This document shows, piece after piece, positions 1,219-30,188 of a DNA stretch of 64,000 bases. A program made the position numbers and the translations under genes. The DNA lies in NCBI GenBank assembly GCA_033439265.1, contig JAVTVX010000024.1, positions 5,397,001 through 5,461,000 of the forward strand, read 5' to 3'. Positions within the stretch are counted from its first letter, which is position 1, and every line of letters starts with the position of its first letter. This stretch comes from Dillenia suffruticosa. Its lineage: Eukaryota; Streptophyta; Magnoliopsida; Dilleniales; Dilleniaceae. Below the pieces are notes generated by a model that ran no database searches, was not told where the DNA came from, and saw nothing but the letters and a program-made list of their open reading frames with translations.

Positions 1219-1575
1219 ATGGGGTTCGAGGCAGAGAACATAATGGATTCAATCATGGAGAAGTTGAAGGAATTGCTACTATGGCTGGAGAACATAGGAC
1301 AGTCTTTACTTAACAAGTTTGATGAGTTGTTTCCTCCAGAGACAAGGGATGAAAAGCTGCTCCAGTGGCTCAAAATTGGCGCACCGTTTCTGATTGGTGG
1401 AATCTTTCTTATCCTACTCTGTTGCTGCTGTAGGCGCTGCTGTTGTGGAAGAAGTACTAGAATGATGATAGCTCCAGGAAGAAACCCTCTTAGAATGCCT
1501 AGAAATGTTTTTGAGAGTAACCCCAAATCCTATTTTAGAAACCTCCGTGCAAATCCATCCACTAATCTTGTCTAG
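1219..1575 (+). CDS. Array gene 1: small single-pass membrane protein, shortest form, no 11-mer repeats
   Basis: The 118-residue protein is of unknown function. Visible parts in order are a helical N-terminus (about 1-34, MEKLKELL core), an LFPPETR turn (38-43), one strongly hydrophobic segment (about 53-68), a CCCCRRCCC cluster (68-76) at the membrane edge that could be palmitoylated, and the family tail (MIAPGR, then FESNPKSYFRNLRANP) at about 82-113. It lacks the amphipathic 11-residue repeats of later copies, so it may be closest to the ancestral form. The start was chosen because it directly follows the (GA)n leader, as in its paralogues. A decayed second copy of the tail lies downstream at 1650-1738. 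Coding status rests on conservation across the array; no function can be assigned. Confidence 0.7.
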   Translation: MGFEAENIMDSIMEKLKELLLWLENIGQSLLNKFDELFPPETRDEKLLQWLKIGAPFLIGGIFLILLCCCCRRCCCGRSTRMMIAPGRNPLRMPRNVFESNPKSYFRNLRANPSTNLV

Positions 1576-1649
1576 CAAAACGATAAACCAGTTTGAGTGG
1601 TGTCATGGGGTTTGTGGTTCTATGTTTCTTAGATCAGTTTGTTGTGTCT

Positions 1650-1738
1650 GGAAATATCTTTGAGAAAGACCCCGGATCCTATTTTAGAAACCTTATTGCA
1701 AATCCATCCATTCGTCTCAGATACTGTATAAACCTATG
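1650..1738 (+). pseudogene. Duplicated copy of the C-terminal tail in the 3' flank of gene 1
   Basis: Read in frame, this piece gives IFEKDPGSYFRNLIANPS and then a stop at about 1738. It parallels VFESNPKSYFRNLRANPS inside gene 1 about 147 bases earlier. It has no start codon or membrane part. It may be a local duplication that decayed or, less likely, an alternative terminal exon; I see no convincing splice acceptor right before it. Confidence 0.55.
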
Positions 1739-1924
1739 AATGAGAGAATTGGGTTTAAGGTTCCATGTTTCCTTTTTCATTTTTCATATGATGGGCGTGT
1801 TTGTTGTGTTATCTGTATGAACATGTATTCTGAAGTTATAGTTAAAAGTGAATATTCCAGCAGGTTTGGCTCCATTGGTTACCGAGTGGCTTATTATCCC
1901 TTGTCCGCTGTCTTATCGTAAAAG

Positions 1925-2397
1925 CCAATGTTATTAAAATTGGACCGAAACCGCCGGTTCAACCATTTTTTTTAACAATTTTACGGTTTGGTTGAATAAA
2001 AATATCTTTTTACAATTGAACCGGATTGAACCGACGGTTCAACCGCTGTTCAACCATGAAAGGAGGTTGAATCGTCGATTTTAAAAAACCGCGCTCTAGG
2101 TTAAAACCTAAAAAAAATTGTTTTTAAGATTTTTTAATTTTTTTAATTTTTATGAGACGTGATACTATCAATTTTTGATATTATGTTTTTGATTTATATT
2201 TTATATGATTTTATAATTTAGTTATTTAGTTCTTAATTATCAATATGAGTTTTAAAAGTAATTATTGATTATATATATATATATTTAATTATTATTAAAA
2301 AATCAACGGTTCAATCATATTGATTCACGGTTCAATCGGTTCAACCATATTTTTGAATTTTACGGGTCATTACACGGTACGGTTCTGATAACATTGG
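1925..2397. mobile_element. MITE, probably hAT-like, with terminal inverted repeats and target duplication
   Basis: The element starts CCAATGTTATTA and ends TGATAACATTGG, which are near-perfect inverted termini. It is flanked by CGTAAAAG on the left and GGTAAAAG on the right, an 8-base duplication with one mismatch if the outer G is counted. It is about 470 bases long, non-coding and full of CGGTTCAACC motifs. It sits in the 3' flank of array gene 1. Confidence 0.65.
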
Positions 2398-2528
2398 TAA
2401 AAGCTTTTTTTTTTTTAAATAAATATTATTAAGCCAAGAAAATAAGCAAAGAAACCACTTCATTGCACAGCCAACTAATAACAGGGCAAACATAACATAA
2501 AAATACACGGTACCAGTATTCATTTGCG

Positions 2529-2625
2529 GCGAAGGTCACGAAAATAGGTATGGAAGGGTCACGCTCAAAATCACCCCCCGGAATAAAAGGTCTCTACCGG
2601 GAGCCTTCATTTGCTTCTCAGGTTC
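2529..2625 (-). pseudogene. Minus-strand tail block 1 (decayed array paralogue)
   Basis: On the plus strand it reads GGTCACGAAAATAG, then GGGTCACGCTCAAAATCA, then GGGAGCCTTCATTTGCTTC. This is the same order as the other blocks (GGTCACGGAAATAG, GGTCATGCTCAAAATCAT, GGAGCTTTCATCCATTTC). In reverse complement it matches the FEHDPASYF tail found at 13.2, 17.5 and 26.7 kb. It lies directly head to head with truncated plus copy 2, which suggests a deletion joined the two. Confidence 0.55.
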
Positions 2626-2633
2626 AGAAAAGA

Positions 2634-2928
2634 GACGAAGTAAGCCATACCCAACAAATACTACTGCTCTCATATCTAATCGGACGTCTTGCTCTTGTCA
2701 TATGTTTTTTGTGCTGTGAATTTGGTATTGCTCTGATTATAAACTTCCTCAGAGCTTGCTTTACGTATATCTTCAAAAACCGTAAAGCTTGCTTCCGCAC
2801 TAGAAATGGCAAAGGAATGGTTAAGATGATGAAAGCTCCTGGAAGGCCTTATATGATCCCAAGGACAGTTGTTTGAGGCTGACCCAAAAGGCTATTTCAT
2901 CAACTTAGGAGCAAATCCTTAGATTTAT
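2634..2928 (+). pseudogene. Array copy 2: truncated and frameshifted
   Basis: An open frame gives a hydrophobic stretch (about LLLSYLIGRLALVICFLCC), a short FLRACFTYIFKN repeat-like part and then KMMKAPGRPYMIPRTVV, where it stops. One missing base relative to the paralogues (expected GTGTTTTTGAG, found GTTGTTTGAG) throws the rest out of frame. The next frame still reads FEADPKGYFINLGANP and ends at the usual stop, at 2921. The N-terminal helix, PPE turn and GA leader are absent; the upstream part is replaced by minus-strand tail block 1. It is a non-functional relic or at best a tail-less product. Confidence 0.65.
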
Positions 2929-3390
2929 GACTTTTTCTGTGTTAATCCTTCCTAGTATGTTGATGTCTTATGTTATTTTTTCTTTTTTCTCATCTGACGT
3001 TGCTTCATTTTGTGCTTCTACCATGAATTTGTAAAAACTCCTCTGGTGGTTGGTGTCTCTATCTGATTTCTAGTGGCTTTTTTCTGTCTTACTGGTTGAT
3101 TGGAGGTAAGGAGTCTCTCTCTCTCTCTCGATCCTCTTTGCTGGGTACATAGGAGTGGTGGGGGGTGACAATCCATTCCACCGAGAAGATATGATGGTAC
3201 TCGATTAGGTTACAGTGTTGATAAAGTAAAAGCGAAGAAATGTTGACTTGATGAGGCAACAACATTCATTATCCCCAACAAGAGCTACGTATCTGTAGCT
3301 ACAATGCTTAAATTAAATGAAGTTTACAGCTAGACAAAAAAGTAGTGTTGGCATTTTGATTCATCAAGATTTGATATTTATTTACTAGAA
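2929..3390. other. 3' flank of array copy 2
   Basis: No gene is seen. The stretch resembles the 3' flanks of other array copies (ATCTGATTTC, TTGGTGTCTC pieces). A (CT)n tract lies at about 3113-3129. Confidence 0.35.
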
Positions 3391-3394
3391 AAGT

Positions 3395-3463
3395 ACGCAG
3401 TAATGTGAAGGATATAGCATCCTGTTCCTCTCTCAAAATCATTCCTTGGATGTACTACTTCCA

Positions 3464-3506
<43 letters not shown>

Positions 3507-3513
3507 TCTCTGC
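3395..3513 (-). pseudogene. Candidate minus-strand tail block with (GA)n leader
   Basis: On the minus strand a (GA)n tract (plus-strand CT at about 3468-3511) runs into a frame reading VVHPRNDFERGTGCYILH. The part around AAGGAATGATTTTGAGAG matches AAGGGATGATTTTGAGCA of the other minus blocks. The rest is too diverged for certainty. If correct, the minus-strand partner once had the same GA leader as the plus genes. Confidence 0.35.
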
Positions 3514-3837
3514 CTAGTTTTTGTTCTTCGGTAAGGATTCATGTAGTCTTTGGATGATGTCATGAGTTACAAATTTTTATTTTGTAATACTTACTCTAAA
3601 AATATTATTAATATGTTTTGAATAATCATCAAATTAAATTTAGAGATAGATTTTTTCGTTACAAAATTTCAAATTTGAAATCTAAATTAAAAATTTTTAA
3701 TATTTTATTATTAAATTCATACAAGATTAGTGTAGATTCCGATCTTAGCTTTACTGTGGATGTGGAGCAAGGAGTTTTGTCTTCTTGGAACTTGGAAATT
3801 ACATATTCTTTTCCGACGGATTTGAGCCATACGCTGG

Positions 3838-4085
3838 GTCCAGATTATAAATCCTATCAATACGTCCCAGGAAAAAATTTTCGTTTCATAATTTGATAAT
3901 TTCTTAATATGATAATTTCATATTTAAATCTCTATACAATAAAAAAAAAATACTGAGTGTAGATTATAAATCCTTATTATATGTCCCAGGAGAACAATCA
4001 GGTGATATAAATTTTCCTTTCGCAATATGATAATTTCACAATCTGATAATTTTATATTTAAATCCCCATACAATTAAAAAAAAAA
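3838..4085. repeat. Tandem duplication of a unit of about 125 bases
   Basis: Two adjacent units share AGATTATAAATCCT, then a TCCCAGGA motif, then ATTTGATAATTT-type AT sequence, and each ends in an A-run. A related ending occurs at about 16780-16860, so the unit may be a tRNA-type SINE tail that landed twice or was duplicated. Confidence 0.5.
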
Positions 4086-4189
4086 AAATCCTTACAGTAC
4101 AGCCCATGTCCAGTCTTATGCTAAATGATAATTGGTTTTTGAAATATCCGGCCCGCTGAAAAAATTTTTGAGAGAATAAAATTAGTAAT

Positions 4190-5520
4190 AAATTCATCCA
4201 AAAAATATTTAATAGGTATGAAAGATTAAAGAAAAAATATTGAATTTTAAAATTAATTCATTTTATTTTTTTAGTATATTGATTAAATTTTCTCTCTCTA
4301 AAAAATAAGATTAAGATATTTTCTTTTTAAAATTAAGTATATTAATTTTTTTCTCTTAAAAAATTAATTTAACTTACACTTTCTCCGATTAAAAACAGAT
4401 TTTAAACTCTTTGTCTCTCTTTAAAATATAAAATTAAAAATCTAACTTTTAAAAATAAATATATTACTTTTCTCTATTTTTATAAGTTAACTTAATTCAT
4501 ACTTTTTTCCTTCCAAATAAATTGCTTTTAAGTTTTTTTCTATTTACAAAAATCAAAACTTAATTTTTCTATTTAAAATTAGGCACATTAATTTTTTTTT
4601 CGGTAAAAAAGTTAATTTTATACATTTTTTCTGTAATCACAGTGATTTTAAGTTTTCTTTTAAACCAAAAAAAAAAATCAAATTTAGTTTTTCTCCTTAT
4701 AAAAATAAACATATTAATTTTTTTATCCCTAAAAAATTCAATTATTTTACATTTCTCTATCTAAATATATTGACTTTAAAGTTTCTCCAAAAAACAAAAT
4801 TTAGTCTTTCTCTTTCTCCAATTAAGCACATTATGATTATCTTGTCTTTTTTTAAATGTATTGGTTTTTTAAGTTTTTCCTCTTAAAAACAAAATTTATT
4901 TTTTTTATTCAAAACTAAATATATTAATTTTTTCTATAAAAAATAAATTTAATTTATATTTTCTTTCCACAAATGTATTGACTTTATGTTTTCTTTCTCT
5001 ATAGGAATCAAAAATAGTTTTTCTCTTTATATAACTCATCATTTTCTTATTTTAAAAAAAGTCAATTTAATCTATATTTTCTCTCTTCAAATATATTGAT
5101 TTTAATTTTTCTATAAAAAACAATAATTTTGTTTTTCATGTATAAATAGATATATTAATTTTCTATCTCAGAAAGATAAATAATTTATCTGAATTTTCTC
5201 TAAAAACAATAATTTTTTTCTCTTAACACATTAATTTTATATTTTCGCTTTAAAAATTAAATGTAATTTTTTCTCTTTAAAATTAAATACATTAATTTTT
5301 AAATTTACTCTAAAATATATATACTATTCTCTCTCTAAAAAGAATAATTGATTTTATATCCTATTTATCTAACCACATTTATTTTGAATTTTCTCTCTAA
5401 AAATCAACTCTCTCTAAAATTAACATATTAAGTTTCTCTCTCAGAAAGATAAATAATTTCAATTTTTATCTCTACACATATTAACTTTAAAATTTTCTCT
5501 CTAAAAAGACCAAATCTAAA
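4190..5520. repeat. Degenerate quasi-periodic AT/CT-rich tract
   Basis: More than 1.3 kb of recurring pieces of the form TTTTCTCTCTAAAAA, AAATTAA, ACATATTAATTTT, roughly every 50-80 bases and heavily diverged. It has no reading frame and looks like an old minisatellite. Confidence 0.5.
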
Positions 5521-6718
5521 ATCATTAAAAGGGAGAAATTCTTTTTTTTTTTTCATTTTATATTGTTTATTGTTTTTGGGTTTTTCTCCTCGTGTTACCC
5601 TTTCTCCACTAGTGTAACATTTACCCCTATCGCATGAAAAATCATAGAGTAAAAATAATGACAGAAAACAAGATAAATTCTAATGGATAATTTTTCACCA
5701 TTTTTTTACCTCAGCCAAACATCACTTGAGATGATTGCTAAATGGAGGTGCCACATGTACCATAATTCGATAAAATTTAGGTTAAAATCATAGTAATAGA
5801 AATCAGTTAGATATGTTCAAAACCTTAAAATTTTGATGAAAAATATGATTAATAAAAGTAAAATTACCTCAATATAAGAGTATGGTAGGTGGGAGCCCCT
5901 TATGATACCACCCAAAGAAAATGATAGTGATGGTTGCCCGGTTATCCTAATTTTCTTTAGGAAAATGAAAAGAAAATTCAATAATTGCTTTCTTTTTATT
6001 TTTTTTTTATTTTAGACTGAATTTTAATATTTAGTAAGTTAATATATATTTCGACTTTTTCAAAGATTTGGATATCAGATCCGGGACAGCGACGGGTTCT
6101 CAGCGCTTACAAGGACGGAGGGATATAATTTTACCATTGTAATTTTAAAAGCAGGTCAATTAACTTTAATTATGGGCACATAAGAGAGAAAATGTTGATT
6201 TTTTTTCACATAAAGTTAATAAAATAAATATTATATATATTTATATGTAAGTAATTTTGCTTTTTGAGATGAAATGTGGGAAGTAATTTTCTTTTTCAAT
6301 AACAAGAATACTGTTTACTATTCCATATCTAATGAAGGGATCTTCTATAATTTCATGTGCAGGTATATATATATACATACATATTGACATACACACACCA
6401 ACATCTAGTTGATGTGTCACTGGTATCCGATCTCATGTTTGAATATTGTATATAAAGAAAATAAATATGGGAGAATTTTGTTCCTAAATAGATTAATTCG
6501 CCTCGAATCGAATTTAATCAGATTCAAATGATTAGTTTATATCTATGTATGAGTGTGCGTGTATATACACATATGATTGTGAGTTTATACAAGTTAAATT
6601 ATGATTGAAGTGCCACAATCCCCTAAATATTTTCCGTGGGATGGTTGATAGCCCCTTTATGGAATTGAAAGCTACATTTGCCTAAGCATCAGTATGGCCG
6701 GCACGGCCCAACTTTTTC
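5521..6718. other. Intergenic, no feature recognised
   Basis: AT-rich sequence with A/T runs and a (TA)n tract at about 6364-6375. I see no gene or clear transposon end here, and the conserved leader and GA tract found before other array genes are missing ahead of the copy at 6801. Confidence 0.4.
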
Positions 6719-7565
6719 GTGGAAACCCAATCCTTCTGCCCAACCACTTTCCGTTGCTCTTTGGAGTTCATGATGGAGAAAATGATAATTATGTTATGTT
6801 ATGGAGAAGAAAGAGAGAATCATGGAAATGAAAGTGATGGAAAACATAGTGAACCATGTCATGGAGATGTTCAAGGTGTTGTTGGTGCTGTCGCAGATTT
6901 TTGGTTCTTATCTGCTGCACAAATTTGGCGAACTATTTCCTCCAGAAACAATAGGAGAGAAGTTTCAGCAGTGGAACATCATGAGCTATGTTATGGAGAA
7001 AAAAGAGAGAATGAGGGAACTGAAGGTGGATGTGATCATCATGGAGAAATTGGAGGCATTGTGGTATCACAATTTTATGGGGAAGTTTCAGGAGTGGAAG
7101 ATGATTCTGATGAACTTTTTTATGCGGACAAAAGATAGAATAATGGAGATGAATATAGATGGAATCATATTGGACGAATGGGGCGAATTATTGGTGGTGT
7201 TACAGAATTTTAGGGATAATCTGCTAAAAATTTGAGGAAGGGTTTCCTCCAGAAACAAGAGTAGAACAATTGCTCAAAATGTTTCTTGCGAGTCTTGTCC
7301 TTCTCATATGCATGGCGTGCTGGGTGTATGGTATTGTTCTGGTCATAAAATTTCTCCAAAGTTGCTGTATGGTATTGTTGGTGTTTATGTGGAAACTGCT
7401 CCTTGCGTGCTATAGGTGTTTGTGCTTTTGCTTTGCAAGGGTGAAAGAGAAAGGAAAGGTTAAGATGATGAAAGCTCCTGGAATGCCTTCTAAAATCACC
7501 CCCTAGAAGTGCTTTTTAGGCCAACCCAAGAGCTTATTTCAGAGGGTTGCGTGCAAATTCTTAGT
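6719..7565 (+). pseudogene. Array copy 3: N-terminal domain in triplicate, frameshifted
   Basis: One open frame (6801-7235, 144 residues) holds three successive versions of the family N-terminus: MEKKERIMEMKVMENIVNHV with LFPPET, then MEKKERMRELKVDVIIMEKL, then TKDRIMEMNIDGIILDEW. It then stops just before the third PPE turn. A shifted frame continues GFPPETRVEQ, a hydrophobic segment (about 7270-7370), a Cys-rich part and KMMKAPGMPSKITP, then a stop at about 7503-7505. One base out of frame the tail persists as ANPRAYFRGLRANS. A 5-base duplication (GTTATGTTATGG) near 6795 also breaks the usual MNYVMEKKE start. It is probably a fusion of several copies by unequal exchange, now a pseudogene. 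Confidence 0.65.
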
Positions 7566-9400: not shown

Positions 9401-9409
9401 TTTCGATTA

Positions 9410-9585: not shown

Positions 9586-9607
9586 TTTTCCTTCTGTTTT
9601 TTTTTGG

Positions 9608-10074: not shown

Positions 10075-10150
10075 ATCAATGTGACCCTACTTTTTCCATG
10101 TAAAGACAAATTTTCTACTTATGCACCTTCCTATCATAATTTTTTATTTT

Positions 10151-10199
<49 letters not shown>
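10075..10199 (+). promoter_or_regulatory. Conserved leader plus (GA)n before array gene at 10200
   Basis: AATGTGACCC, then CATGTAAAGACAA, then CACCTTCCTA matches the leaders at 13.9, 18.2, 24.2 and 29.7 kb. A (GA)n tract (about 10153-10199) touches the start codon. The upstream ATG is followed at once by TAA here, so no upstream frame forms. Confidence 0.55.
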
Positions 10200-10203
<4 letters not shown>

Positions 10204-10730
10204 AGATGGAGAACATGATGAACTATGTCATGGAGAAGAAAGAGAGTATAATGGAAATGAAGGTAGATGAAAACATAGTGATTCATATCTTGGAAAAGCT
10301 GAAGGAGTTGTTGGTGGTGCTTCATAACTCTGTTGCTCATCTGGCACACAAACTTGATCAAGTGTTTGCCCCAGGAACAAGAAGAGCAGGGAAGCTTCAA
10401 CCTCAACAATGGATTCCATTTCTGATTTGGACTTTTGTCTTTATCGTGTGCTCCAAATGCATCTTCAAAATGTTCAAATCTCTCTTTAAGTGTTTCTTCA
10501 AAGTGATCAAATATTTCTTCAAGTATTCCTTCAAATGTATCCATACTTGCCTTAAGATTATCTTCAAAAGTTTTTTCAAACTGCTTAAAGAGTGGTTGAA
10601 GTCTCTCTTCAAATTCCTCATGTATTCCTTGAAGATGATGAGAGCTCCTGGAAGGTCTTACAGAAACCCTACAGGTTTTCTTGAGGCTAACGCAAAAGGT
10701 TATTTTGAAAACTTCCATTCAAATCCATAG
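10200..10730 (+). CDS. Array gene at 10.2 kb: membrane protein with five 11-residue repeats
   Basis: 176 residues, unknown function. In order: MENMMNYVMEKKESIMEMKV N-terminus, helix LEKLKELLVVLHN (about 31-43), VFAPGTR (55-61, a variant of VFPPETR), one membrane segment (about 71-84), then five 11-residue units from 87 to 141 (CIFKMFKSLFK, CFFKVIKYFFK, YSFKCIHTCLK, IIFKSFFKLLK, EWLKSLFKFLM) that place Lys about every third or fourth position on an aromatic helix. The tail RAPGRSYRNP..FLEANAKGYFENFHSNP closes the protein. The first ATG abuts the GA tract; a second in-frame Met two codons on is equally possible. It pairs divergently with the minus block at 9.5 kb. The long antisense frame across it is a mirror of the repeats. 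Confidence 0.75.
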
Positions 10731-13978: not shown

Positions 13979-13982
<4 letters not shown>

Positions 13983-14440
13983 TGAAGAAGATGGAATGCA
14001 TCATGAACTATGTTATGGAGAACTGCAAAGAGAGAATAATGGAACTGGAGATTGATTGGGATATTGTGATAGAGAAATTAAAGGAGTTCTTGGTGGTGTT
14101 ATACAACTTTGTTGCTTCTCTGCTGCAAAAATTTCAGGAAGTGTTTCCTCCAGAAATTTTTGGATTCCTAGTTGAATTTCTTGTCATTCTCATTTGCATT
14201 GGTATCTGTGCAATTGGTCTTCTGCTTATCAATGTGATCTCTAAGTATCTCCCAAAAATGGTCAAGGAATGCTTCAAGTATCTTGCCAAAGCAGTCAAAG
14301 CCTGGTTGAAGTCTCTCTTCAAAATGGTCAAAACCTCCTTGAAGATGATGAGAGCTCATGGAATGCCTTGTAGAGTCCCAACAACTGTTTTTGAAGATAA
14401 CCCAGAAGGTTATTATGAGAATTTGTGTGCAAATCCTTAG
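13979..14440 (+). CDS. Array gene at 14.0 kb: membrane protein with three clean 11-residue repeats
   Basis: 153 residues, unknown function. It has the N-terminus MVKKMECIMNYVMENCKERI, helix IEKLKEFLVVLYNFVASLL, VFPPEIFGF (56-64), a long hydrophobic segment (about 64-86) and three near-identical 11-mers at 89-121: KYLPKMVKECF, KYLAKAVKAWL, KSLFKMVKTSL. The tail is MMRAHGMPCRVP..VFEDNPEGYYENLCANP. The repeats have a 33-base period at 14243-14341. An in-frame upstream ATG (13886) could give a 184-residue form. It is intact, with a leader like its neighbours. Confidence 0.75.
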
Positions 14441-15015: not shown

Positions 15016-15018
15016 CTC

Positions 15019-18271: not shown

Positions 18272-18787
18272 ATGGAGAACATGATAAACTATGTGATGGA
18301 GAAAAGAGAGATTCTAATGGAAATGAGTGTAGACGAAAGCATAGCGCACATTGTCCTACAAAAATTGATAGTGCTACTGGTGCTTTTACACGACTTTGGT
18401 TGTTATCTTCTACATGTATTTGATCAAGTGTTTGCTCCGGAAAAGCTGGAACTATGGATTCCTTTTGGAATCATCATGCTCATCCTTTCTTGGTGCTGCA
18501 AATGTTGTTGTCATCTGTGCATGGAAATGATCAAGGCTTGCTTCGAGTACTACCTCCATATGTTACTCGAAACTCTCAAAGCTTGGTTCGTGGGTGTGTT
18601 CAAAGTGCTCAAAGATTGTTTCAAGTGTTTCGGCAAAATGCTCAAAGTGATCTTCAAATGTTTCGGCTTTTGCTGCTCCACAAGCGGGAAAGGAATGGTT
18701 AAGAAGATGATGAAAGCTCATGGAAGGCCTCATAGAATCCCCACAAGTGTTTTTGAGATTGAGCAGAAAGGTTACTTCTTTAAGTGA
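18272..18787 (+). CDS. Array gene at 18.3 kb: Cys-rich membrane protein with a shortened tail
   Basis: 171 residues, unknown function. N-terminus MENMINYVMEKREILMEMSV, hydrophobic helix (about 30-48), VFAPEKLE (53-60), membrane segment (about 61-75), then CCKCCCHLC (75-83). An amphipathic region ends in two clear 11-mers (VFKVLKDCFKC, FGKMLKVIFKC at 109-130) and a GFCC cluster. The tail KKMMKAHGRPHRIPTSVFEIEQKGYFF ends early with a Lys and lacks the NLHANP end. The open frame is intact. It pairs divergently with the minus block at 17.5 kb. An overlapping plus frame (18454-18702) is a shadow. Confidence 0.75.
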   Translation: MENMINYVMEKREILMEMSVDESIAHIVLQKLIVLLVLLHDFGCYLLHVFDQVFAPEKLELWIPFGIIMLILSWCCKCCCHLCMEMIKACFEYYLHMLLETLKAWFVGVFKVLKDCFKCFGKMLKVIFKCFGFCCSTSGKGMVKKMMKAHGRPHRIPTSVFEIEQKGYFFK

Positions 18788-20228
18788 CTTTATGTCAACT
18801 TTTACTGGTATTTTTATGTCCTGATTTTATTAATGTTGTAAATTTAATGTCGTGTACTCTTGAAAGACCTGTGAGAGCATGCTACACAGGGTATTTTGCT
18901 TTTGTTATGGGGCTAGCTTGAAATGGTTGTCTAGAGTATGAGCTGATTGAGGTTTGAGTCAAGACTAATAGTTGGTCATAGAATTGAAGAAGTTGGTGTT
19001 GTGTGTTTTTTCTTCCAAGTGTCTCCATGGCAATATGAGCATGTTAGTGTGCAGAAATTCAATAGTATCTTCCTTTCATTTGTCATATTTGTGTTGATTT
19101 TGTTTATGTGAATGTTTTGATCTGAAATGTATGCTAGACAGTTTACATCCTACCAAAGATTGATTCTGAACAAAAGTCTACAATTTTTAGGATATTAATA
19201 TTTACAGAATTTGTAATTGTTAAATTAACTAATCACTATTTTAGAATAGTAAAATTAATTAATAGTTGTTAAATGAAGATCCAACGATCACAAATCCAAG
19301 GGAAGCCCAAGCCAAGCTAGTCCAGAAAATCAAACATCTCATTTAGAGAGAGAAAGAGCCCGAGTAGAGGTTTGGGCCCGAAGAGGATTACATGATCATT
19401 AGGCCCGGCCCGAGCTCAAAATTTCCCTCTTACCTTTTTTCGTCGGCCCTCCCAGCATCATCAGGCTTGACTACGTACCCAATCTGGTACCTTCTTCTTC
19501 GTTATTTATTTTTTATTTTTTATTTTTTTACTGATATTTAAAATTATATTCTGATTAATTTAATTTAAATATTTATAAAGACCCTATTTAGGGGTGACTC
19601 TCCTAGTATAATTTTTTTTTATTCTCAAATTTCAAATCCGAGATTTGAGTCAGAAATTTAACATCCAATCTTACTAACTCAACTGTGAGTTGATACCTAT
19701 TCTGTTACTTTATGGAACGCTACGTTAATTTGAATTTGAAGTCGAAAGGTAGCTTGGGGAAGATTATTTGTAAAATGATGAGATCCTAAAGAGAAAAAGC
19801 TAAGGAATTTTAGAATCTCTCTCTCTCTCTCTCTCTCTCTCTGAAATTTTGCACGGCAAGAACTTTTGGAGAAGAACTTATCACCACCCATCTAAAATCT
19901 TAAAGAATTATGAAACCCTCTTTGCAAAATTTGCATGAGGGTTGAAGCTTGTCATCAATTTTAATATCTTTTGAGGTATCAATTTGGATTATGATAAAAA
20001 ATAAATAAATAAAATAGAAATAAAATTTTCAATTTTGATAGAAATCATTTATTCAGAATTCGATTCCAATTCATTTTGATTATTGTGGTTTGAAACCTTT
20101 GTAGATACTACTATAGATTATAGGAGATATTCCTAAGGGGACAAGCTAATGGTACAAATTCTTCTTCTCTGATCTGGAAATTTCAGATTCAAATTTTTGT
20201 ATAAAAAAATAGATTATAGGAGATAGTT
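18788..20228. other. 3' flank of gene at 18.3 kb and intergenic DNA
   Basis: No gene is seen. Contents are the array-type 3' flank to about 19100, a dispersed SINE-tail-like piece at 19530-19690, and a (CT)n tract at about 19817-19842. The minus-strand frame there has no family resemblance. Confidence 0.4.
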
Positions 20229-20610
20229 GTAACGATTTTTTGTAAATGTGGAGATTTATAAATATGTGACAAAAAAATATAAGTGGAAGAGAATCTCATA
20301 TTGGTTGGTAAGTGAGGGAGGAGGTGAGTTTCTTGTCTATAAAAATTGATGGATCCTCCCCCTTTACTTAAGGTATCCCAAAATTGCCTCTCATCTCTCT
20401 TAAGCCAATTTTCATTTCTCTGTCTCTTGTAATATTTTATTAAATATTAATAAAATATTATTATAATAGTATCCGTAAACATATTTGATTAAATTTTATT
20501 AAATTTTAATGTTTTTTCTTTATAATTGTTATTGGATATAATTGTAGTGATATATTGTATTATTAAATTACCATTTTTAAAGAAAATTATCCCGAGATGA
20601 TTTTAATATT
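20229..20610 (+). repeat. Copia LTR, left copy (direct)
   Basis: Starts near TGTAACGATTTTTTG and includes CTATAAAAATTGATGGATCC, CCCAAAATTGCCTCTCATCTC and TGTAGTGATATATTGTA. It matches the copy at 22.3-22.7 kb in the same orientation and the one at 20.64-20.96 kb in the opposite orientation. Ends are approximate. Confidence 0.6.
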
Positions 20611-20639
20611 ACAATTTATTACTACAATTATACCAAACA

Positions 20640-20960
20640 ATAATTATTAAATAAAGAAAGAGTACTAAAATTTAATGAGATTCGGTCAAATATGCCTACG
20701 TTTTATGATACTACCACAATAATATTTCAGTAATATTCAATGAACTATTACAAAAGAGAGAAAAATTACCTTAAGAGAGTTGAGAGGCAATTTTGGAATA
20801 CTTGAACTAAACAGGGGGAGAATCCATTTTTATAGGCAAAAAACTCACCCCATCCCCTATTTACCAATTAATATGGGATTCTCTCCCACTTGTATTTTTT
20901 TGTCACATATTTACAAATCTCTACCTTGGCAAAAAATTTTACAACTCTCTCCTACAATAT
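20640..20960 (-). repeat. Inverted copy of the same LTR
   Basis: In reverse complement it shows CTATAAAAATGGATTCTCCC, CCAAAATTGCCTCTCAACTCTC and the TGTAAAATTTTTTGCC start. With the left LTR it forms an inverted repeat with arms of about 300 bases and a short spacer, able to fold into a long hairpin. Confidence 0.55.
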
Positions 20961-21548
20961 ATAGTATTGTCTACAATTTTTTTTTTCAATTTTTAATAAT
21001 ATTAATCAAGTTTAAACAAAATTAAAATTTGACCACAGTCACTACTTTGTCATCATCTCATAGGATTCTTAGAGGTTGAAATTTTCTAAATTATAACTCT
21101 TTTTGTCAAATGAATTGCACTCTGCCTATTATAATGTATTTTAATGTATTTTTGTTTTTTGTTTCAGTTCACCAAGCCCCTTGAAGCCAAATTGTTTCCT
21201 TCGCAATTTCTATAATTGCTGTGTATTTTGCCTCTGTAGAAGACAATTCCAACTCACTAGTGCCTTTGCAAGAGTAAATATATAACTAGTAGTTGATCGA
21301 TATTTGTCTAAATTATTAGTATAATCATAATCATAATATCCAACTATGTATTAACAATTTTGCTTGTCCTGTTGAAATATCAAATCAAAATTCACGGTAT
21401 TCAGAATGTACGGTAGCATCAATTTCAAAGTTTGTCAATACTTCTTATCAAGATTATGCATGTAACTACTCACATCAAAGAATATTTAAGTAAGCCAATA
21501 AAATGTTTTGGTATTAATAAAATGTCAAAACCAGTTAGTACTTCACTT

Positions 21549-22180
21549 ACTCCTCATTTCATCTTAGTTCATCCTTGTTACTAAAGAATGATATAGAATA
21601 GGAATACATGTCAAAAGCACTGTATGCAAGTACAGTTGGTAATCTAATGTATGCTATGATGTATACAAGACCTGATATTTCATATATAGTTGGAGTTGTA
21701 AATAGATACATGCATGATCCTGGAAAGGAGTATTGGCAAACTGTGAAATGGATTTTACAATACATTCTGAATACCGTGAAACTTGATTGGATATTTTAGC
21801 AGGACAAGCAAAATGATCAATGCATAGTTGGGTATTGTGATTCTGACTATACTAGTGATTTAGACAAACGTCGATCAATTACTGGTATATATTTACTTTT
21901 GCAAAGATACCAATGAGTTGAAAGTCTACCTTATAGTCAATAGTTGTTTTGTTTTCTCTAAAGATAGAATATATGGCAATTACAGAAACTTTGAAAGAAG
22001 CAATTCAATTTCGAGGGATGATTAGTGAACTGAGACTGAAACAAAAACACATCAGAGTGCATTGTGACAGTCACAGTGCAATTCATTTGGTAAAGAATCA
22101 AGTTTATCATTTAAGGATGAAACACATCGATGTTCTTCATCACTTCGTACAGGAGATTTTGGAAAAAGGTAGATTATAAT
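21549..22180 (+). mobile_element. Copia pol 3' remnant (RNase H region)
   Basis: Frames read SKALYASTVGNLMYAMMYTR with PDISYIVGVV, then YCDSDYTSDLDKRRSITG, then VHCDSHSAIHLVKNQVYH and KHIDVLHHFVQEILEKG. These are the conserved end of Copia pol (RT end and RNase H, including the CDS.SAIHL.KN motif). Several stops and shifts interrupt it. Upstream pol and gag are absent; the left LTR lies about 1.3 kb away. A dead element. Confidence 0.75.
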
Positions 22181-22324
22181 CCAAAAAAATTCAAATTTTG
22201 AGAATTCTACTATATGATGATAAAAGTAGTGAATACACTCGATCTTCGATTTTGTTTGAAGTTAATCAATATGAATGAAAATTTAAAATTTAAAATTGTA
22301 AACACTACTTTAAATTGTAAAAAA

Positions 22325-22715
22325 GAGTTGCAAGAATTTTTTGCCTGAAGATTTGTAAATATATGGGAAAAAAAATATAGGTGGGAGAGATTCCGAGGTT
22401 GGTTGATAAGTGGGGGATGAGTTGAGTCTCTTGCCTATAAAAATGGATTCTCCCCTCTTTGGTTCAACCATCCCAAAATTGCCTCTCATCTCTTTTAAGT
22501 CAATTTTCTTTTCTCTTTCTTATAATATTTTATTGAATATTAGTAAAATATTATTATGATAGTACCTAAGAATATAGTTATATTTGCCCAAATTTCGTTA
22601 AAATTTGATATTCTTTCTTTATTTAATAGTTATTGTTAAGTATAATTGTAGTGATATATTGTACTATTAATTTTTTTTATTGAAAATTATTCTGAAATAA
22701 TTTTTTAATATAATC
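22325..22715 (+). repeat. Copia LTR, right copy (direct)
   Basis: Contains CTATAAAAATGGATTCTCCC, CCCAAAATTGCCTCTCATCTC and TGTAGTGATATATTGTACTATT in the same order as the left LTR. It follows the pol remnant directly, as a 3' LTR should. Confidence 0.6.
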
Positions 22716-22721
22716 ATTCGC

Positions 22722-24145: not shown

Positions 24146-24147
24146 AA

Positions 24148-24215
24148 CCCAATGAGGCCCCACCTCTTCATGAGAAGACAATTTTTCTTCGTGGGCACCA
24201 TCCTAGCTTCTTCGC

Positions 24216-24268
<53 letters not shown>

Positions 24269-24272
24269 GGAT
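24148..24272 (+). promoter_or_regulatory. Conserved leader plus (GA)n before array gene at 24273
   Basis: GAGGCCCCACCTCTTCATGAGAAGACAATTTTTCTTCGTGGGCACCATCCTAGC is shared with the leader at 29.7 kb at most positions. The GA tract covers about 24220-24265. The upstream ATG enters the GA repeat out of frame with the gene. Confidence 0.55.
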
Positions 24273-24743
24273 ATGGAGAAAATGATTAACAATGTTATGG
24301 AGAGAAAAGGGAGAATGATGGAAATTAATGTAAATGAAAACACTGTGAACCTCATACCAGAAATATTGAGATGGTTATTGATGGTGTTACAAAGGATTTT
24401 CGATTATCTGCTGCGCAAATTCGGTCAAATGATACCTCCAGAGATGTTCGATGAAATGCTTCCTTACATGCTTGGAATACTTGTCTTCCTCATGTGCTCT
24501 AAATGCATCTTCAAAATGATCAAAGCTGGCTTCAAGTATATCTTCAAAAGCATCACAAAATTCTTCAAGTACTTCTTCAAAGCACTCTTTTGGTGTTTTT
24601 ATTGCTGCAGCACGAGAAATGGGAACGGAGGAACGGTTAATAAGATGATGAAAGCTCATGCAGGGCCTTATAGAATCATCCCAATAAGTGTTTTTGAGGT
24701 TAACCCAAAAGGTTATTTCGAAAATTTGCATGCAAATCCTTAG
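24273..24743 (+). CDS. Array gene at 24.3 kb: membrane protein with three 11-residue repeats and full tail
   Basis: 156 residues, unknown function. N-terminus MEKMINNVMERKGRMMEINV, helix to about 48, MIPPEMFDE (53-61), membrane segment (about 63-76), then CIFKMIKAGFK, YIFKSITKFFK and YFFKALFWCFY (78-110), a CC pair, a basic/Gly linker, and the tail KMMKAHAGPYRIIPISVFEVNPKGYFENLHANP. The tail has one extra residue in HAGPYR relative to its paralogues. The frame is intact. The CSKCIFKM start of the repeat block is shared with the gene at 10.2 kb, pointing to recent common ancestry of the two. Confidence 0.75.
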   Translation: MEKMINNVMERKGRMMEINVNENTVNLIPEILRWLLMVLQRIFDYLLRKFGQMIPPEMFDEMLPYMLGILVFLMCSKCIFKMIKAGFKYIFKSITKFFKYFFKALFWCFYCCSTRNGNGGTVNKMMKAHAGPYRIIPISVFEVNPKGYFENLHANP

Positions 24744-25679
24744 AATTCCATGCATGAAATTTTTACTGCGTTATTCTTTTACTTGTATGTTGTTGTGTCC
24801 TATGTTGTTTGTGTGATAAAGGTTGCTTGACATTGTTGCTGTTTAGAGTCAGACTCTGGCAGAGTCAAGTATAGTAGTTAATCTCTTATAAATTTTATAA
24901 ATGAAGATGTTACTGTTGGTGTATTTCTATGGCAGTAAAATTTTGTGGCTTTTCAGACATTTTAAAGCTTCCTGCTTGCTTGTTGATTTACTATTTAATT
25001 GATGCTAATGTTTTTCCAGTCCAGTGGGGATTTTCGAATTCTGTATTATCAAGTGTTTCTTGCTTCTGTCTTGTTCTAATAAATTCATTAAAGTTTTTCT
25101 TCTCACGACGTCACATTAAATCCAAACTGGAGCGACTTCTGATTCTTTTTCCTTCTTAAGTTTTTCGTTTGATTTGTGGGGTTTGGAGATATTTTTCTTT
25201 TTATTTTGGTTCTTACACAAGGGAAAAGGGTAAAAATTGAACTTCCGTCATAAGGCCCGGTTCGATTTTGTAGATATTGGAAGTTTAAGGATGAGAAATT
25301 TGTGTTATATCGTAAGTAGAGGTATTTAAACAGACCCAAATTGCAATTTATCGACAATGCTTGTCCCACAAATAAAAATGTTGGTCCTATAGTTTATATA
25401 ATCACATTGTTATAAAATTCCACACCTTAGCTCCATAGAGTTAAAATCTGATAATAAAATTTTAGTTTTTCCTTTAAAAAAAAAAAAAAAAATCTATCCC
25501 TAAAAGTTATAAAAGAGAAAGTATACTAAAGTCTTGTGAATTTAGTACTAGAACACTAAACTCTTTTAACTAAAATCTCCTATTCGAGAATAAAAAAAAG
25601 GGTTGAGAGAGTGTCTCTAAATTGATTTTCATAAAACTCAAATCGAATTAGTCAAATCTAGATTCTAACCATGAAGTAA

Positions 25680-25722
<43 letters not shown>

Positions 25723-26685
25723 AATAAAAGAGGAGGCCTATCTTTGGGCTGTCGCCGAGCTCAAGGTCTGCTTTGATCGCTTTGCTTGGGCTTATGTTTG
25801 GGCCTTGCCCGAAGATCGACAAGCCCACCAATGCTTATTGCGTTCCCTTTCTATTCTTTTTTTTTACACAAAATTTAAATTCTGAAACTAAAGATTAGGC
25901 AACGGGGTTGTGAGTATTTGGCTATTCGTTAGGCACACTTGTTGTGACTATTTGGCTATTCTTTAGGGACACTTATTGTGTTCCCAATACTTGAATAATT
26001 TTTGTTTATATATGATTTTAGAAAATACAAAATTTATTTAATGAGTTATAATTTAATTAATATTATTTTTGATATTTTTTGAATAAAATTCTCGAATTTG
26101 AGTATTCTTATATGATAAAAAAAAATCAAATTTGCTCGGTCACATCACTTCCATATTTAATGTTGTTTCCCATAGCCACTGTAGCCATGAATCTTTCATC
26201 TTCCTAAAATACTTTATATGACCCAATTCCCCAATCCTAACCTAGAACCTTTTACGAAATCCTATGAGCAACGACGTTTACTTGGGATCAGTTTACGAAT
26301 TTGTGACACCATAATAAAATCGTTACCTACGAGACCCAACATTTAAATTTATTATTTTATTGCACATAATGAGAAATATTCTTTTTGCTTTTAATGTCAA
26401 CAGAAAAATAGTAACAGAATAGTGAAATTCGGGGGATGATATATAAATAACCTTCACAAGCTTATTATTAGATAAAAAATTTAAAAATATAAATTGGACC
26501 AATCAAAATTTTGGAAAGCATTTCCCTTTCAACATAATTTGATTCTTCCATGAGATAAGAATTGACCATATTACCAACTATATAAATCGTTCCAACTGGC
26601 AATGAGAAAGATAAAAAAAATAAAAAAAAATAATAAAGAAAGAAACATAGAGTACCACTAGTCCATGAATATAATAGCACCAGAC
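24744..26685. other. 3' flank of gene at 24.3 kb and intergenic repeats
   Basis: No gene is supported. Contents are the array-type 3' flank to about 24950, a SINE-tail-like piece at about 25500-25680, a (TAA)n microsatellite at about 25679-25717, and a short tandem duplication at about 25908-25980 (TTGTGA.TATTTGGCTATTC.TTAG twice). The frame at 24929-25159 looks like chance. Confidence 0.4.
25679..25717. repeat. (TAA)n microsatellite
   Basis: About twelve uninterrupted AAT/TAA units in AT-rich intergenic DNA. Confidence 0.9.
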
Positions 26686-26689
26686 TATT

Positions 26690-26850
26690 TCTTCGTGCAG
26701 GTCACGGAAATGGCTAGCAGGGTCATGCCCAAAATCATCTTTTTGACATGTACGTTCAAGTCCTTCCTAGGACCTTTCATCCATTTCTATGGCTCCTTTC
26801 GGGTTTCCACTTTTCCGAGAGGGACGCAACCCGACCCGAAAATGCCAGGC
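26690..26850 (-). pseudogene. Minus-strand tail block (26.7 kb), best preserved tail
   Basis: In reverse complement: EPxKWMKGPRKDLNVHVKK, then, shifted one base, DDFGHDPASHFRDLHEE. This lines up residue for residue with the plus tail (KAPGRPYRIP, then FE.NPKGYFENLH). The frameshift lies between the two halves, at the same place as in several sister blocks. It is about 1.2 kb upstream of, and divergent from, the gene at 28038. Confidence 0.6.
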
Positions 26851-27925
26851 CTTCAGTAAAATGCTAATTTTAGTGATTTTCAATTACACCCTTTGCAGAT
26901 CTTCAGCTCCCCCCCCCCCGGGTTCTTGGATCGCTCCTACCTCTCATCTATCATGCACAAGCACCCTTTGTATATAGTTGGTTTTACTCTTGATTACTAA
27001 TTTTCTTTTTATTTAATTCTACTTGTAATATTTGTCAGTTAAAATAGAATTTTTTTTTAAGGCTGTGAATTTTATATGTTGACAATGGTTAGCCCAAACA
27101 ACATTGTATACGATCCAAAAGTAAAATATTTTGTTATTTAATTACTTTTTGATAAATGATTTTTTTTTTTTTTTTGGTTTAGTTGAATATTTTTTTATCT
27201 GAAAATTTAATATAGAATGTCAGCAATGGGGTTTTGTGCACTAACACTGGTTTTTGACTTATAATCGAGAGATTCTGGGCTCGATTCTCACCCATGAAAT
27301 TTTCTTGCCTCTTTACTTCCCATTCTTCCGATCTTCTTCTAGGCCTCCCTTGTAACCGAAGAAAAATGTTATATATATATAGCATGTCAATTTACATTAT
27401 GATAAATGAAAAGAAAAATCAAATGATATTTGATATAGCTATGTTTATCTTATGGACAAATATGACTTCCTAAGATTAACTTATTTTTCTTTTATACTTC
27501 TTTTCATGTGATGTTGCATCTTAGTTTCTAAGAATTATGACCATTCAGCCGAAATAAATAACAATTCTTATATACATATATATATTGAAAAAAATTCATA
27601 TATGACAAGTTTCATGAGGTTCGATAGCTTTAGACATTGTTAAAACTTTATGATATCAAATTAAGAAAAATAATATAAAAAATAATTTCTTTAAATATCG
27701 GGTCATCCTTTTTACTTATGAAAAATTTTGTGAAGACATTTTTCTCCCAATTCTTCGTTTTGTCGAAATTGAAAAGTGGTGTTATTAGCTCTCAATGCAT
27801 TATCATAAATCTTTTTATTGAACAACTTTATTAAGATTTGCATTGCTCAAACGATTGCAAAACATTTAAAGCCATATAAAACAATAAGAACATTCTAAAA
27901 GCACCTTGACCTTTTTCATTTACCA
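26851..27925. other. Intergenic, upstream of gene at 28038
   Basis: A C-run lies at about 26912-26921. A B-box-like GGGCTCGATTCTCACCC at about 27277-27293 hints at a SINE remnant. The stretch ending about 27850-27890 (GATTGCAAAACATTTAAAGCCATA) is shared with about 29612-29635, so the conserved promoter zone extends at least 120 bases above the leader. Confidence 0.4.
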
Positions 27926-27978
27926 TGGGACCCCACCTTGATGATAAAAGATATATATTCTCCCGCTTCACACTCTCT

Positions 27979-28012
<34 letters not shown>

Positions 28013-28037
28013 GGGAGGAAAGGAGGGAGGGAGAGAG
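27926..28037 (+). promoter_or_regulatory. Conserved leader plus (GA)n before array gene at 28038
   Basis: CATGGGACCCCACCTTGATGA and then a CTCTCTCT / (GA)n junction at about 27971-28009, with a GGGAGGAAAGGAGGGAGGGAGAG spacer before the ATG. The upstream ATG ends at TGA just before the GA tract. Confidence 0.5.
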
Positions 28038-28493
28038 ATGGTGAAGAAGATGGAGAACATGATGAACTACGTTATGGAGCGAAGAGAGAGCATAATGGGA
28101 ACGAATGCAGATGAAAACATATTGCACTGTGTCATAGAGAAATTGAAAGAGTTGTTGGTTCTTCTGCTGCACAAATTCAGCCAAGTGTTTCCTCCAGAAA
28201 GAAAAGCGGAAAAATTGGTTCTCCAAGTGCTTCCATTTCTAGTGGGAAGTTTTTTCTTCTTCATAGTCTACAAGAAGTGCTGTTGTCTTTCCTTCCTCAG
28301 AGGATGCTTTAAGTTTTTCTTCAGATTTCTTGAAGCTTTGTTTGAAGCCATCCTCTTAACATTCAAAAACACCTTTAGAGGTTTCTTCAGAATGACCAAA
28401 GCTATATTCAGAGGTTCCTTAAGGTTTGTGAAACATTGCTTTGTGGGTTTCTTCAAAATGCTCAAAGCTTTGATCAAGTGTTTCTGCTGTTGA
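28038..28493 (+). CDS. Array gene at 28.0 kb: tail-less form with four 11-residue repeats
   Basis: 151 residues, unknown function. N-terminus MVKKMENMMNYVMERRESIM, helix IEKLKELLVLLLHKF, VFPPERKAEK (50-59), membrane segment (about 63-78), CCC, then an aromatic basic region closing with ILLTFKNTFRG, FFRMTKAIFRG, SLRFVKHCFVG and FFKMLKALIKC (105-148) and CFCC. The frame stops at TGA where the paralogues continue into the KAPGR tail. The tail's remains follow the stop (GAAAGCT, AAGTGTTTTTGAATTT). The gene at 29.8 kb ends the same way, so the loss predates their split or was shared by exchange. Confidence 0.75.
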   Translation: MVKKMENMMNYVMERRESIMGTNADENILHCVIEKLKELLVLLLHKFSQVFPPERKAEKLVLQVLPFLVGSFFFFIVYKKCCCLSFLRGCFKFFFRFLEALFEAILLTFKNTFRGFFRMTKAIFRGSLRFVKHCFVGFFKMLKALIKCFCC

Positions 28494-29115
28494 AAGCTAA
28501 TGGGAACGAAGGCCTTCTAGAATCTCAATAAGTGTTTTTGAATTTTATTAGACTCATGACTTTGCTATGTTTATATTTACTAGTTATTGGGGTGTTTCCT
28601 CATTTCTTATTTTGTTTATGGTACTGCTTGATACTGCTGTTTAAGAGTATTTATGCATAAACATGTTGGTGCTTTATGTGTATTTTTATTTTTAGTTCAA
28701 GTGATTTAGTTCTAGATTATACTTTTTCTTTATACAATAGGCATCCAACCCTTGGTATAGGTGAGATTTGAATTACAATCTTTGCATAGGTAAGATTCGA
28801 ATTACAAAGCCCTTAATACAGTTTTAAAAAGATTTAAACTAGTTAACAATATGATCATATTTAATAGTGTGTATGGTCCTCCCCAAATTTCAAAAATAAT
28901 TCTTGATATTACTCATAATGTGTTTTACAATTTTCCATTTAAAAGAAATTAGCCAATGCAATTTCCCCTTCCCCCCAAAATATATGCTTTCTATCTCTAG
29001 ATCTTTCCCTTGGTAGAACGACCATGTTTTGTGCGTATTTTTCCATCCGAAGTATTTCTATGAAGGAGAAGTTTGTAGCTTTGGCATAAATTTTCAAGCT
29101 TCGCACCTTCCTACA
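28494..29115. other. Intergenic, 3' flank of gene at 28.0 kb
   Basis: Array-type 3' flank with tail remnants to about 28555, then a short internal duplication at about 28752-28810 (GGTGAGATTTGAATTACAA / GGTAAGATTCGAATTACAA). No gene is seen. Confidence 0.4.
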
Positions 29116-29117
29116 TT

Positions 29118-29365
29118 TTTGTAGTGCCAAATACATCCAACCCCAAGAACATAGCATATCCATATAGTGGCATACATACATACATACATACATACATACA
29201 TACATACATACATACATACAGTACAACTAGCTTATAAGTAATAGCACTTGCAATTTAATTTGTATAGGTCATTGGAATAGCTTTTGGCGTCGTGCTCAAA
29301 ATCATTTCTTAATTGTTTACAAGTTCTTACAGGGACCTTACTTTATTTTCAGGGTTTTCATAAGT
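29118..29365 (-). pseudogene. Minus-strand tail block (29.3 kb) with internal (TACA)n
   Basis: In reverse complement: KVPVRTCKQLRNDFEHDAKS, then YSNDLYKLN in one frame to a stop. The FEHD core is intact. A (TACA)n microsatellite (about 29172-29220) has expanded between the tail and the conserved downstream motif GGTTGGATGTATTTGGCA (about 29122-29139). About 0.4 kb separates it from the divergent gene at 29772, the tightest pair in the array. Confidence 0.5.
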
Positions 29366-29611
29366 ACCCATTGCCTTAGAATTGCCCCAATATCAATTAA
29401 AATTTTGACTAATATTAGAGGTACCAATACAGGGTAAATTTGATCGTATGTCTAAGATTTTTATATATTATCAAATAAAAGATTGAGTGAGGAAGGATTC
29501 AAGTCCAGTTTGGCTAAGTCATAAAAATTTTTACAAAATTGAGTCTCAATTTATTTTATTTTATTTTATTTATTTTTCTTTCAACAGTGATATGCGTTAT
29601 TGTTTTTCAAA

Positions 29612-29771
29612 TGATTGCAAAACATTTAAAGCCAATAAAAAATGATGAGAATTTTTTCAAAGCACCCGGTACAGTTGATTCATGTGACCCCACTTCTTCA
29701 TGAAAAGACAACCTTTCTTCTGGGCACCTTCCCATTTCAATATTTTCTCAGAGAGAGAGAGAGAGAGAGAG
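29612..29771 (+). promoter_or_regulatory. Conserved leader plus (GA)n before array gene at 29772
   Basis: GATTGCAAAACATTTAAAGCCA (about 29612-29633), then CATGTGACCCCACTTCTTCATGAAAAGACAACC and GGGCACCTTCCCA, then a short GA tract (about 29751-29771) touching the ATG. The upstream ATG at 29700 is in frame through the GA repeat and would add 24 residues. Confidence 0.55.
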
Positions 29772-30188
29772 ATGAAGAAGGAAAACATGATCAACCATGC
29801 TATGGAAATGCAGATAGATGAAAGCTCAGCATTGAAGGAGTTATTGTTGGTGCTACACAACATTGTTGCTTGTCTGCAGCACATGTTCGATCAAGTGTTT
29901 CCTCCAGAAACAAGAGCCGTCCAACTGTTCCCATTTCTAATGGGTACCTTCGTCTTCTTCATTCTCTTCAGGTGTTGCTGCCTCGACGTGTTCAAAGCTT
30001 GCTTCCGTTGTTTCTTCAGAATGCTCAAAACTATCTTTGGAGGTATCCTCACAACTATCAAAAACACTTTTAGGTGTTTCTTCACAACCCTTAAAGCTTG
30101 CTTTAGAGGTTTCTTAAAATTCATCAAAGATTGCTTTGCGGGTTTCTTCAAAATTGTGAAAGCTATGTTGAAATGTTGCTGCTGTTGA
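29772..30188 (+). CDS. Array gene at 29.8 kb: tail-less form with five regular 11-residue repeats
   Basis: 138 residues from this start, unknown function. The N-terminus is shortened (MKKENMINHAMEMQIDESS). Then come helix LKELLLVLHNIVACLQHMF, VFPPETRAV (42-50), a membrane segment (about 53-66) and RCCC. Five regular units span 81-135: FFRMLKTIFGG, ILTTIKNTFRC, FFTTLKACFRG, FLKFIKDCFAG, FFKIVKAMLKC, followed by CCC and a stop. The DNA repeats with a 33-base period at 30012-30176. After the TGA, tail remnants remain (GAAAGCT...AGCAAATCCTTAG). The Cys-Cys ends before and after the repeats are candidate acylation or disulfide sites. Confidence 0.75.
   Translation: MKKENMINHAMEMQIDESSALKELLLVLHNIVACLQHMFDQVFPPETRAVQLFPFLMGTFVFFILFRCCCLDVFKACFRCFFRMLKTIFGGILTTIKNTFRCFFTTLKACFRGFLKFIKDCFAGFFKIVKAMLKCCCC

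Follow-up and report, generated by a model that had tools for sequence, protein, structure and literature searches.

A tandem array of PF28138 genes in Dillenia suffruticosa encoding small membrane proteins with a variable 11-residue repeat

Background

Helices that make three turns per 11 residues, are built of tandem units and show one polar stripe are known from perilipin 4 and alpha-synuclein, and among such helices the units of perilipin 4 are described as having the smallest hydrophobicity and no large hydrophobic residues (in the accessible part of PMC5889406). Another group of small membrane-associated proteins, the executor proteins, measure 113-342 amino acids (aa), are predicted to span membranes and, Bs3 excepted, are without homology to known resistance proteins (in the accessible part of PMC9061838). 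Here we analyse a stretch of 64,000 nucleotides from Dillenia suffruticosa (GenBank assembly GCA_033439265.1, contig JAVTVX010000024.1, positions 5,397,001 to 5,461,000; hereafter the window), in which positions 1219-30188 hold a tandem array of genes, c1 to c9, that belong to the family PF28138. In c4-c9, the long copies, the membrane segment is followed by a run of 11-residue (33-bp) units; c1 has none. These units resemble those of perilipin 4 and alpha-synuclein in geometry, tandem arrangement and polar stripe, but they are joined to a membrane-spanning helix and are rich in Phe, Lys and Cys, and no sequence relation is claimed. The reading that we favour, and to which we give an even chance, is that of a PF28138 gene cluster whose products, judged by their sequence architecture, combine a membrane anchor, a long cationic helix that would lie on the membrane, and a conserved tail that would dock a partner.

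Results and discussion

The array and its family

The window was scanned on both strands by means of a list of open reading frames (ORFs), pairwise comparison at the DNA and protein level and a family profile. The tandem array proposed in an initial annotation of the same DNA was borne out, with seven intact frames of 118-176 aa and two broken copies, all on the plus strand (Table 1), and the profile scan yielded no further full copy and no convincing copy on the minus strand. The single layout that had been ascribed to all copies did not hold, as they differ at the N-terminus, in the repeat and in the tail. The first copy starts with MGFEAENIMDSIMEK and lacks the MNYVMEKKE block. The N-terminus of c2 is not recognisable. 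In c3 the N-terminal module (6795-6977) is followed in one frame by two weaker repeats of itself at 6975-7097 and 7104-7229 (domain E-values in the profile scan 9e-14, 0.46 and 0.13), and then by a stop, a frame change and another stop ahead of the tail. The shortened tail of c6 ends in KGYFFK before its stop codon, and the frames of c8 and c9 stop immediately behind the repeat, beyond which decayed sequence resembling the tail is found. All seven intact copies are preceded by a (GA)n run, 22-47 bp long, that ends 0-28 bp upstream of the start codon; there is none ahead of c3.

The family, which the initial annotation called uncharacterised and could match to no named function, is known to databases as Pfam PF28138, although we found no function for it. 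A search with c7 alone gave 0 relatives (and no match in the protein database or the PDB), an alignment of the seven copies gave 4, and c1 aligned with those 4 gave 189 at E-values up to 1, of which 120 were listed; the scoring covered the 7993 candidates that had most words in common with the query. At least 115 relatives carry the PF28138 label (115/120 among the matches listed). No protein of the family that was tried had a match above cut-off in Pfam or NCBIfam, the Pfam set scanned being without the PF28138 model. As a stand-in for that model, we built a hold-out profile, free of window sequences, from the 72 of the 115 labelled relatives that have at most 150 aa; it matches all seven intact window proteins at E-values of 1.1e-51 to 8.2e-9, against 0.63 for the best of 350 shuffles. 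Weak Pfam matches to Scramblase (0.004, c3), Pep1_7 (0.33, c6) and viral proteins were dropped, as they lie below the curated cut-offs.

Homologues with the same layout thus occur in many flowering plants, as judged from the profile search. The named sources among the matches listed are all flowering plants (Persea, Asimina, Acorus, palms, grasses, Macleaya, Protea, Saxifragales and asterids), next to many rows without a named source. No named rosid (e.g. Arabidopsis, Populus, Vitis) is among the 120 matches listed, which possibly reflects a loss of the family or else an effect of search scope; absences among the relatives mean little, because 7993 candidates were scored and 120 of the 189 relatives listed. 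Among the relatives, 44/120 of which were read by eye, several have close locus tags (Handroanthus CDL12_16357/59/60/61, Daucus DCAR_0727388/89, Lonicera LguiA_000464/465, Acorus CPB15g01655/57). By these tag numbers alone, the genomes being unread, tandem clusters of the family are suggested in several other species.

The layout of the relatives comprises an N-terminal helix (ENxMNxVxEKLKELL), an FPPE turn, one membrane helix, a Cys cluster and then the tail MMKAPGR..MPR..FESNPRSYF; of these, the Cys cluster and the complete tail occur in some of the window copies and not in others. The best 19-residue window exceeds a Kyte-Doolittle value of 1.6 in 72/72 labelled relatives (at most 150 aa) and in all seven window proteins. 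The C-terminal side of the membrane segment is more positive than the other in 69/72 labelled relatives and in six of the seven window copies (the two sides being equal in c6), and at least three Cys surround the membrane exit in 69/72 relatives and in c1, c4, c8 and c9. The tail motif MMKAPGR...FESNP..YF is present in 109/120 listed relatives, among which there are two-tailed Handroanthus rows. Multiplication of the N-terminal part, as in c3, has a parallel in the 12/120 relatives with two or three PPE motifs (by a rough motif count).

An 11-residue repeat in the long copies

The Lys/Phe/Cys amphipathic region described in the initial annotation holds good for c4-c9, where it consists of two to five full 11-residue units, but not as a layout common to the array. 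In c9, for instance, successive units read ACFRCFFRMLK-TIFGGILTTIK-NTFRCFFTTLK. When DNA identity at lag 33 was compared with that at seven other codon lags, lag 33 was highest in all six long copies (Table 1), and Tandem Repeats Finder (TRF) reported a period of 33 in c4, c6 and c9 but not in c5, c7 and c8. The units account for the longer stretch between the PPE motif and the tail, 62-96 residues in c4-c9 (counted to the stop codon in c8 and c9) versus a median of 44 in the relatives (110/120 parsed).

The same period governs the arrangement of charge and hydrophobicity. Charge is autocorrelated at lags 4, 7 and 11 in 6/6 long copies (p of 0.015 or less; 0.003 or less for lag 11), while lags 15 and 22 each reach the 0.05 level in 5/6. 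In all six, the hydrophobic moment has its maximum at 97-98 degrees (shuffle p of 0.0005 or less). This is close to the 98.2 degrees of three turns per 11 residues, and in the shorter stretches it is not separable from the 100 degrees that a plain helix would give. Lys and Arg lie on one helical stripe (resultant 0.85-0.90), and the units have a mean hydrophobicity of 0.49-0.77, a moment of 0.58-0.71 and a net charge of +5 to +12.

The 11-residue periodicity with 3-11 helix amphipathicity that marks perilipins and synuclein is thus found in every long copy, and the same three-turn geometry (PMC5889406, in its accessible part) would suit a lipid-droplet or curvature-sensing coat, the units acting on droplets or curved vesicles as they do in those proteins. 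We nevertheless rate such a role as improbable. The weak hydrophobicity of perilipin 4 does not recur in the window, whose units are Phe-rich (with as many as 15 Phe in a stretch of 59 residues; perilipin 4 is judged here by the wording of the accessible part of PMC5889406, not on the same scale), and a membrane-spanning helix upstream is ill-suited to simple monolayer coating.

The hydrophobicity, moment and charge of the units fit a strongly membrane-active helix, and would also agree with membrane-disrupting cell-death proteins, in which the cationic Phe/Lys helix would make membranes permeable, as an antimicrobial peptide or a small membrane-spanning executor resistance protein does, with the tail holding it in check. 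The loss of the tail in two copies points the same way, as does the description of executors as small and predicted to span membranes, which resembles the window proteins (PMC9061838, in its accessible part). On the other hand, clustering and a spread over flowering plants require no defence role, and a relation to executors was neither found nor searched for; we hold this explanation to be unlikely, if less so than a droplet coat. As to the suggestion in the initial annotation of a defence or reproduction function, nothing was found for or against it. The open-licence papers searched yielded none on PF28138, no plant-protein paper with the tail motif by title, and, again by title, nothing usable on plant membrane-protein repeats, small tandem membrane families or Dillenia genomes.

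Table 1. Positions of the array copies, their 11-residue units and associated elements in the window
Feature	Positions	Strand	Evidence
c1, ordinary short form, 118 aa, complete tail, without 11-residue units	1219..1575	+	ORF, hold-out profile (E 1.1e-51), tree, AlphaFold2
Tail-only fragment, downstream of c1	1650..1712	+	Profile scan (E 0.0002)
c2, broken, frame change at about 2870 before tail	2646..2919	+	ORF, pairwise comparison, profile scan
c3, broken copy	6770..7563	+	Pairwise comparison, profile scan
(GA)n run immediately 5' of c4 start	10153..10199	+	
c4, 176 aa, complete tail	10200..10730	+	ORF, hold-out profile
c4, five 11-residue units	10470..10634	+	Lag-33 identity 0.59 vs 0.18-0.43; TRF period 33, 10462-10535
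c5, 153 aa (184 aa if in-frame ATG 13886), complete tail	13979..14440	+	ORF, hold-out profile
c5, three 11-residue units	14246..14344	+	Lag-33 identity 0.68 vs 0.14-0.33
c6, 171 aa, shortened tail	18272..18787	+	ORF, hold-out profile
c6, four 11-residue units	18527..18658	+	Lag-33 identity 0.52 vs 0.15-0.34; TRF period 33, 18601-18667
c7, 156 aa, complete tail	24273..24743	+	ORF, hold-out profile
c7, two full 11-residue units	24507..24572	+	Lag-33 identity 0.73 vs 0.26-0.51
c8, 151 aa, tail not in frame	28038..28493	+	ORF, hold-out profile
c8, five 11-residue units	28302..28466	+	Lag-33 identity 0.48 vs 0.17-0.38
c9, 138 aa (162 aa if in-frame ATG 29700), tail not in frame	29772..30188	+	ORF, hold-out profile
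c9, five 11-residue units	29997..30161	+	Lag-33 identity 0.64 vs 0.18-0.36; TRF period 33, 30069-30153

Coding status and constraint

In codon-aligned pairs of copies about 39% of the nucleotides differ, yet seven frames are open. Because protein-guided alignment pushes the ratio of nonsynonymous to synonymous rates (dN/dS) downwards, neutral simulations were needed as the reference, and in these the median was 0.75, not 1, with a 5% point of 0.50. Observed values (NG86 method) ranged from 0.16 to 0.66 with a median of 0.42 in 18 of the 21 pairs, dS being not computable for c1 versus c7, c8 and c9, and 14/18 lay below the simulated 5% point. Mean differences at codon positions 1, 2 and 3 were 0.40, 0.32 and 0.46, against 0.37, 0.36 and 0.39 when 60 neutral simulations were aligned in the same manner. 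Under substitutions only, 92/400 neutral frames were still open at a branch length of 0.1 and 21/400 at 0.2, so that most would have closed by substitution alone. The frames therefore look like protein-coding genes, as the initial annotation had maintained; it had named a lack of relatives in other plants and dN/dS near 1 as what would speak against them, and neither does so, since relatives exist and dN/dS is below 1.

These data also bear on the possibility that c1 is the functional gene and c4-c9 are loosely constrained, drifting duplicates, whose repeat would be a side effect of 33-bp slippage. Two copies are broken, three more have lost or shortened their tail, and dN/dS reaches 0.66, all of which would be expected of drift. 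Against it stand six frames of 138-176 codons that have stayed open despite deep divergence, a charge register kept in every long copy, codon position 2 as the least divergent one, and comparable 11-residue units in three named relatives (see below), and we assign drift only a small likelihood.

Relationships and recurrence of the repeat

A tree of 62 rows (the seven window copies and 55/120 relatives, hand-picked for named genera) joins c1 to the Dillenia turbinata protein P0073 (support 100/99) and places c4-c9 in a separate clade of six (100/99). The pairing of c1, which is that of a single gene and depends on the label of P0073, would by itself put the window in or near the Dilleniaceae. 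P0073 is 87.5% identical to c1 over 72 residues, whereas for its second half no match is found in the window at an E-value of 10. It was deposited as Nucleolar protein 14, although its first 86 residues match c1, and by its sequence is likely a wrongly joined (fused) gene model. Within the clade of long copies, colinear units of c8 and c9 are 67-85% identical and off-diagonal pairs 42-76%; this suggests, without proving it, that the repeat predates the c8/c9 duplication.

Ten of the 110 parsed relatives have a PPE-to-tail stretch of 58 residues or more. Nine of these (P0085 was left out) were tested for the repeat on hand-cut stretches, at a threshold of 0.05 uncorrected for nine tests. Lag-11 identity and helix-band moment both passed in 4/9 (P0029, P0072, P0079 and P0080), identity only in P0103, moment only in P0115 and P0076, and neither in P0078 and P0117. 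Similar units are thus present in relatives from Davidia, Vaccinium and Camellia, the three named sources among the four; P0080, which is outside the tree, would be the first to fall under multiple-test correction. For a second tree most of the linker was removed and P0006, P0007, P0019, P0061, P0068, P0084, P0086 and P0102 were left out, resulting in 54 rows and 107 columns, with a bootstrap that is not fully settled. The nine repeat-bearing rows (c4-c9, P0029, P0072 and P0079) require four changes on this tree, as many as its well-supported branches impose, so the repeat arm most likely arose several times.

Predicted structure and a possible mechanism

The AlphaFold2 model of c1 (50 sequences; mean predicted local distance difference test score, pLDDT, of 80.5) contains helices at residues 3-37 and 40-75, followed in the tail by a small hairpin (82-84 and 92-94) and two short helices. 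For c4 (seven sequences) long helices are predicted at 68-108 and 112-147, at a low confidence (mean pLDDT 60.2). A PDB profile search with 50 relatives gave four matches up to an E-value of 10 and none below 0.1, the best of which, tweety homolog 2 (0.12), was taken as chance; Foldseek, run with the c1 model only, gave no match at an E-value of 10.

From the architecture, its constraint and its recurrence, all of them read in the sequences, we infer how the proteins might work. The N-terminal helix and the single membrane helix would anchor the protein with its basic C-terminal side in the cytosol. In copies that keep the Cys cluster, which follows the membrane segment, these cysteines may tie that side to the membrane by lipid modification. 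The 11-residue units would form a long helix in the cytosolic leaflet, with the lysines at the surface and Phe, Leu and Cys buried, and their number would set the strength and area of membrane gripping or bending. The folded tail would dock a conserved partner, while the tail-less c8 and c9 would retain the membrane-gripping part only.

Several observations weigh against this scheme. The charge rule fails in c6, with a net charge of -2 on both sides of the membrane segment, three of the seven copies (c5, c6 and c7) have fewer than three Cys at the membrane exit, and c8 and c9 are without the tail. The long helix of c4 is weakly predicted, given its mean pLDDT of about 60, and neither the PDB profile search nor Foldseek of the c1 model provided a partner or a fold match. 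Finally, dN/dS is just moderately under the neutral simulations, with 4/18 pairs at or above the 5% point, so that some copies may be decaying.

Other features of the window

Tail-like matches on the minus strand at 29259-29339, 31292-31363 and 26689-26748 (E-values 0.006-0.06) were rejected after reading, because they have neither the APGR core nor adjoining family sequence; they may be what is left of old tails. Two long open frames, antisense to c4 (10134-10718) and c7 (24387-24755), are rich in Phe and Glu, as expected of Lys and Phe codons read in reverse. Between c6 and c7 lies a set of nested repeats, both inverted and direct (20225-22711; lengths of about 60-500 bp, identity 73-84%), which may represent a non-autonomous mobile element.

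Downstream of the array, the minus strand carries receptor-like kinase pieces in separate frames (36251-37254; kinase domain in 36251-36544, no Pfam match for 36712-37254), an intact amino-acid permease gene (39007-40782, 591 aa, AA_permease_C), whose product we read as being of the cationic amino acid transporter type, and pieces of a Copia-type retrotransposon (56770-58331, gag and Pol_BBD). Tandem cytochrome P450 copies and fragments, which may be CYP714-like, occupy 45507-50740, with PF00067 matches in 49929-50312 and 50312-50737 and similar pieces at 52087, 59433 and 61025.

Conclusion

Taken to the level of the family, the recurrence of the repeat would allow a broader view, which we regard as doubtful and well short of an even chance: that PF28138 proteins repeatedly, in some four lineages, grew a lipid-binding repeat helix between anchor and tail, as a membrane-tethered plant counterpart of the perilipin and synuclein helices of animals, in which the repeat number of each tandem gene would tune the grip, and a docking protein that loses its tail would be left to act purely as a remodeller or disruptor of membranes. 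For the role of the PF28138 family the 11-residue arm offers a concrete and testable handle, and in the Dillenia array nature provides variants of one protein that range from 0 to 5 full units and either have the tail or lack it.

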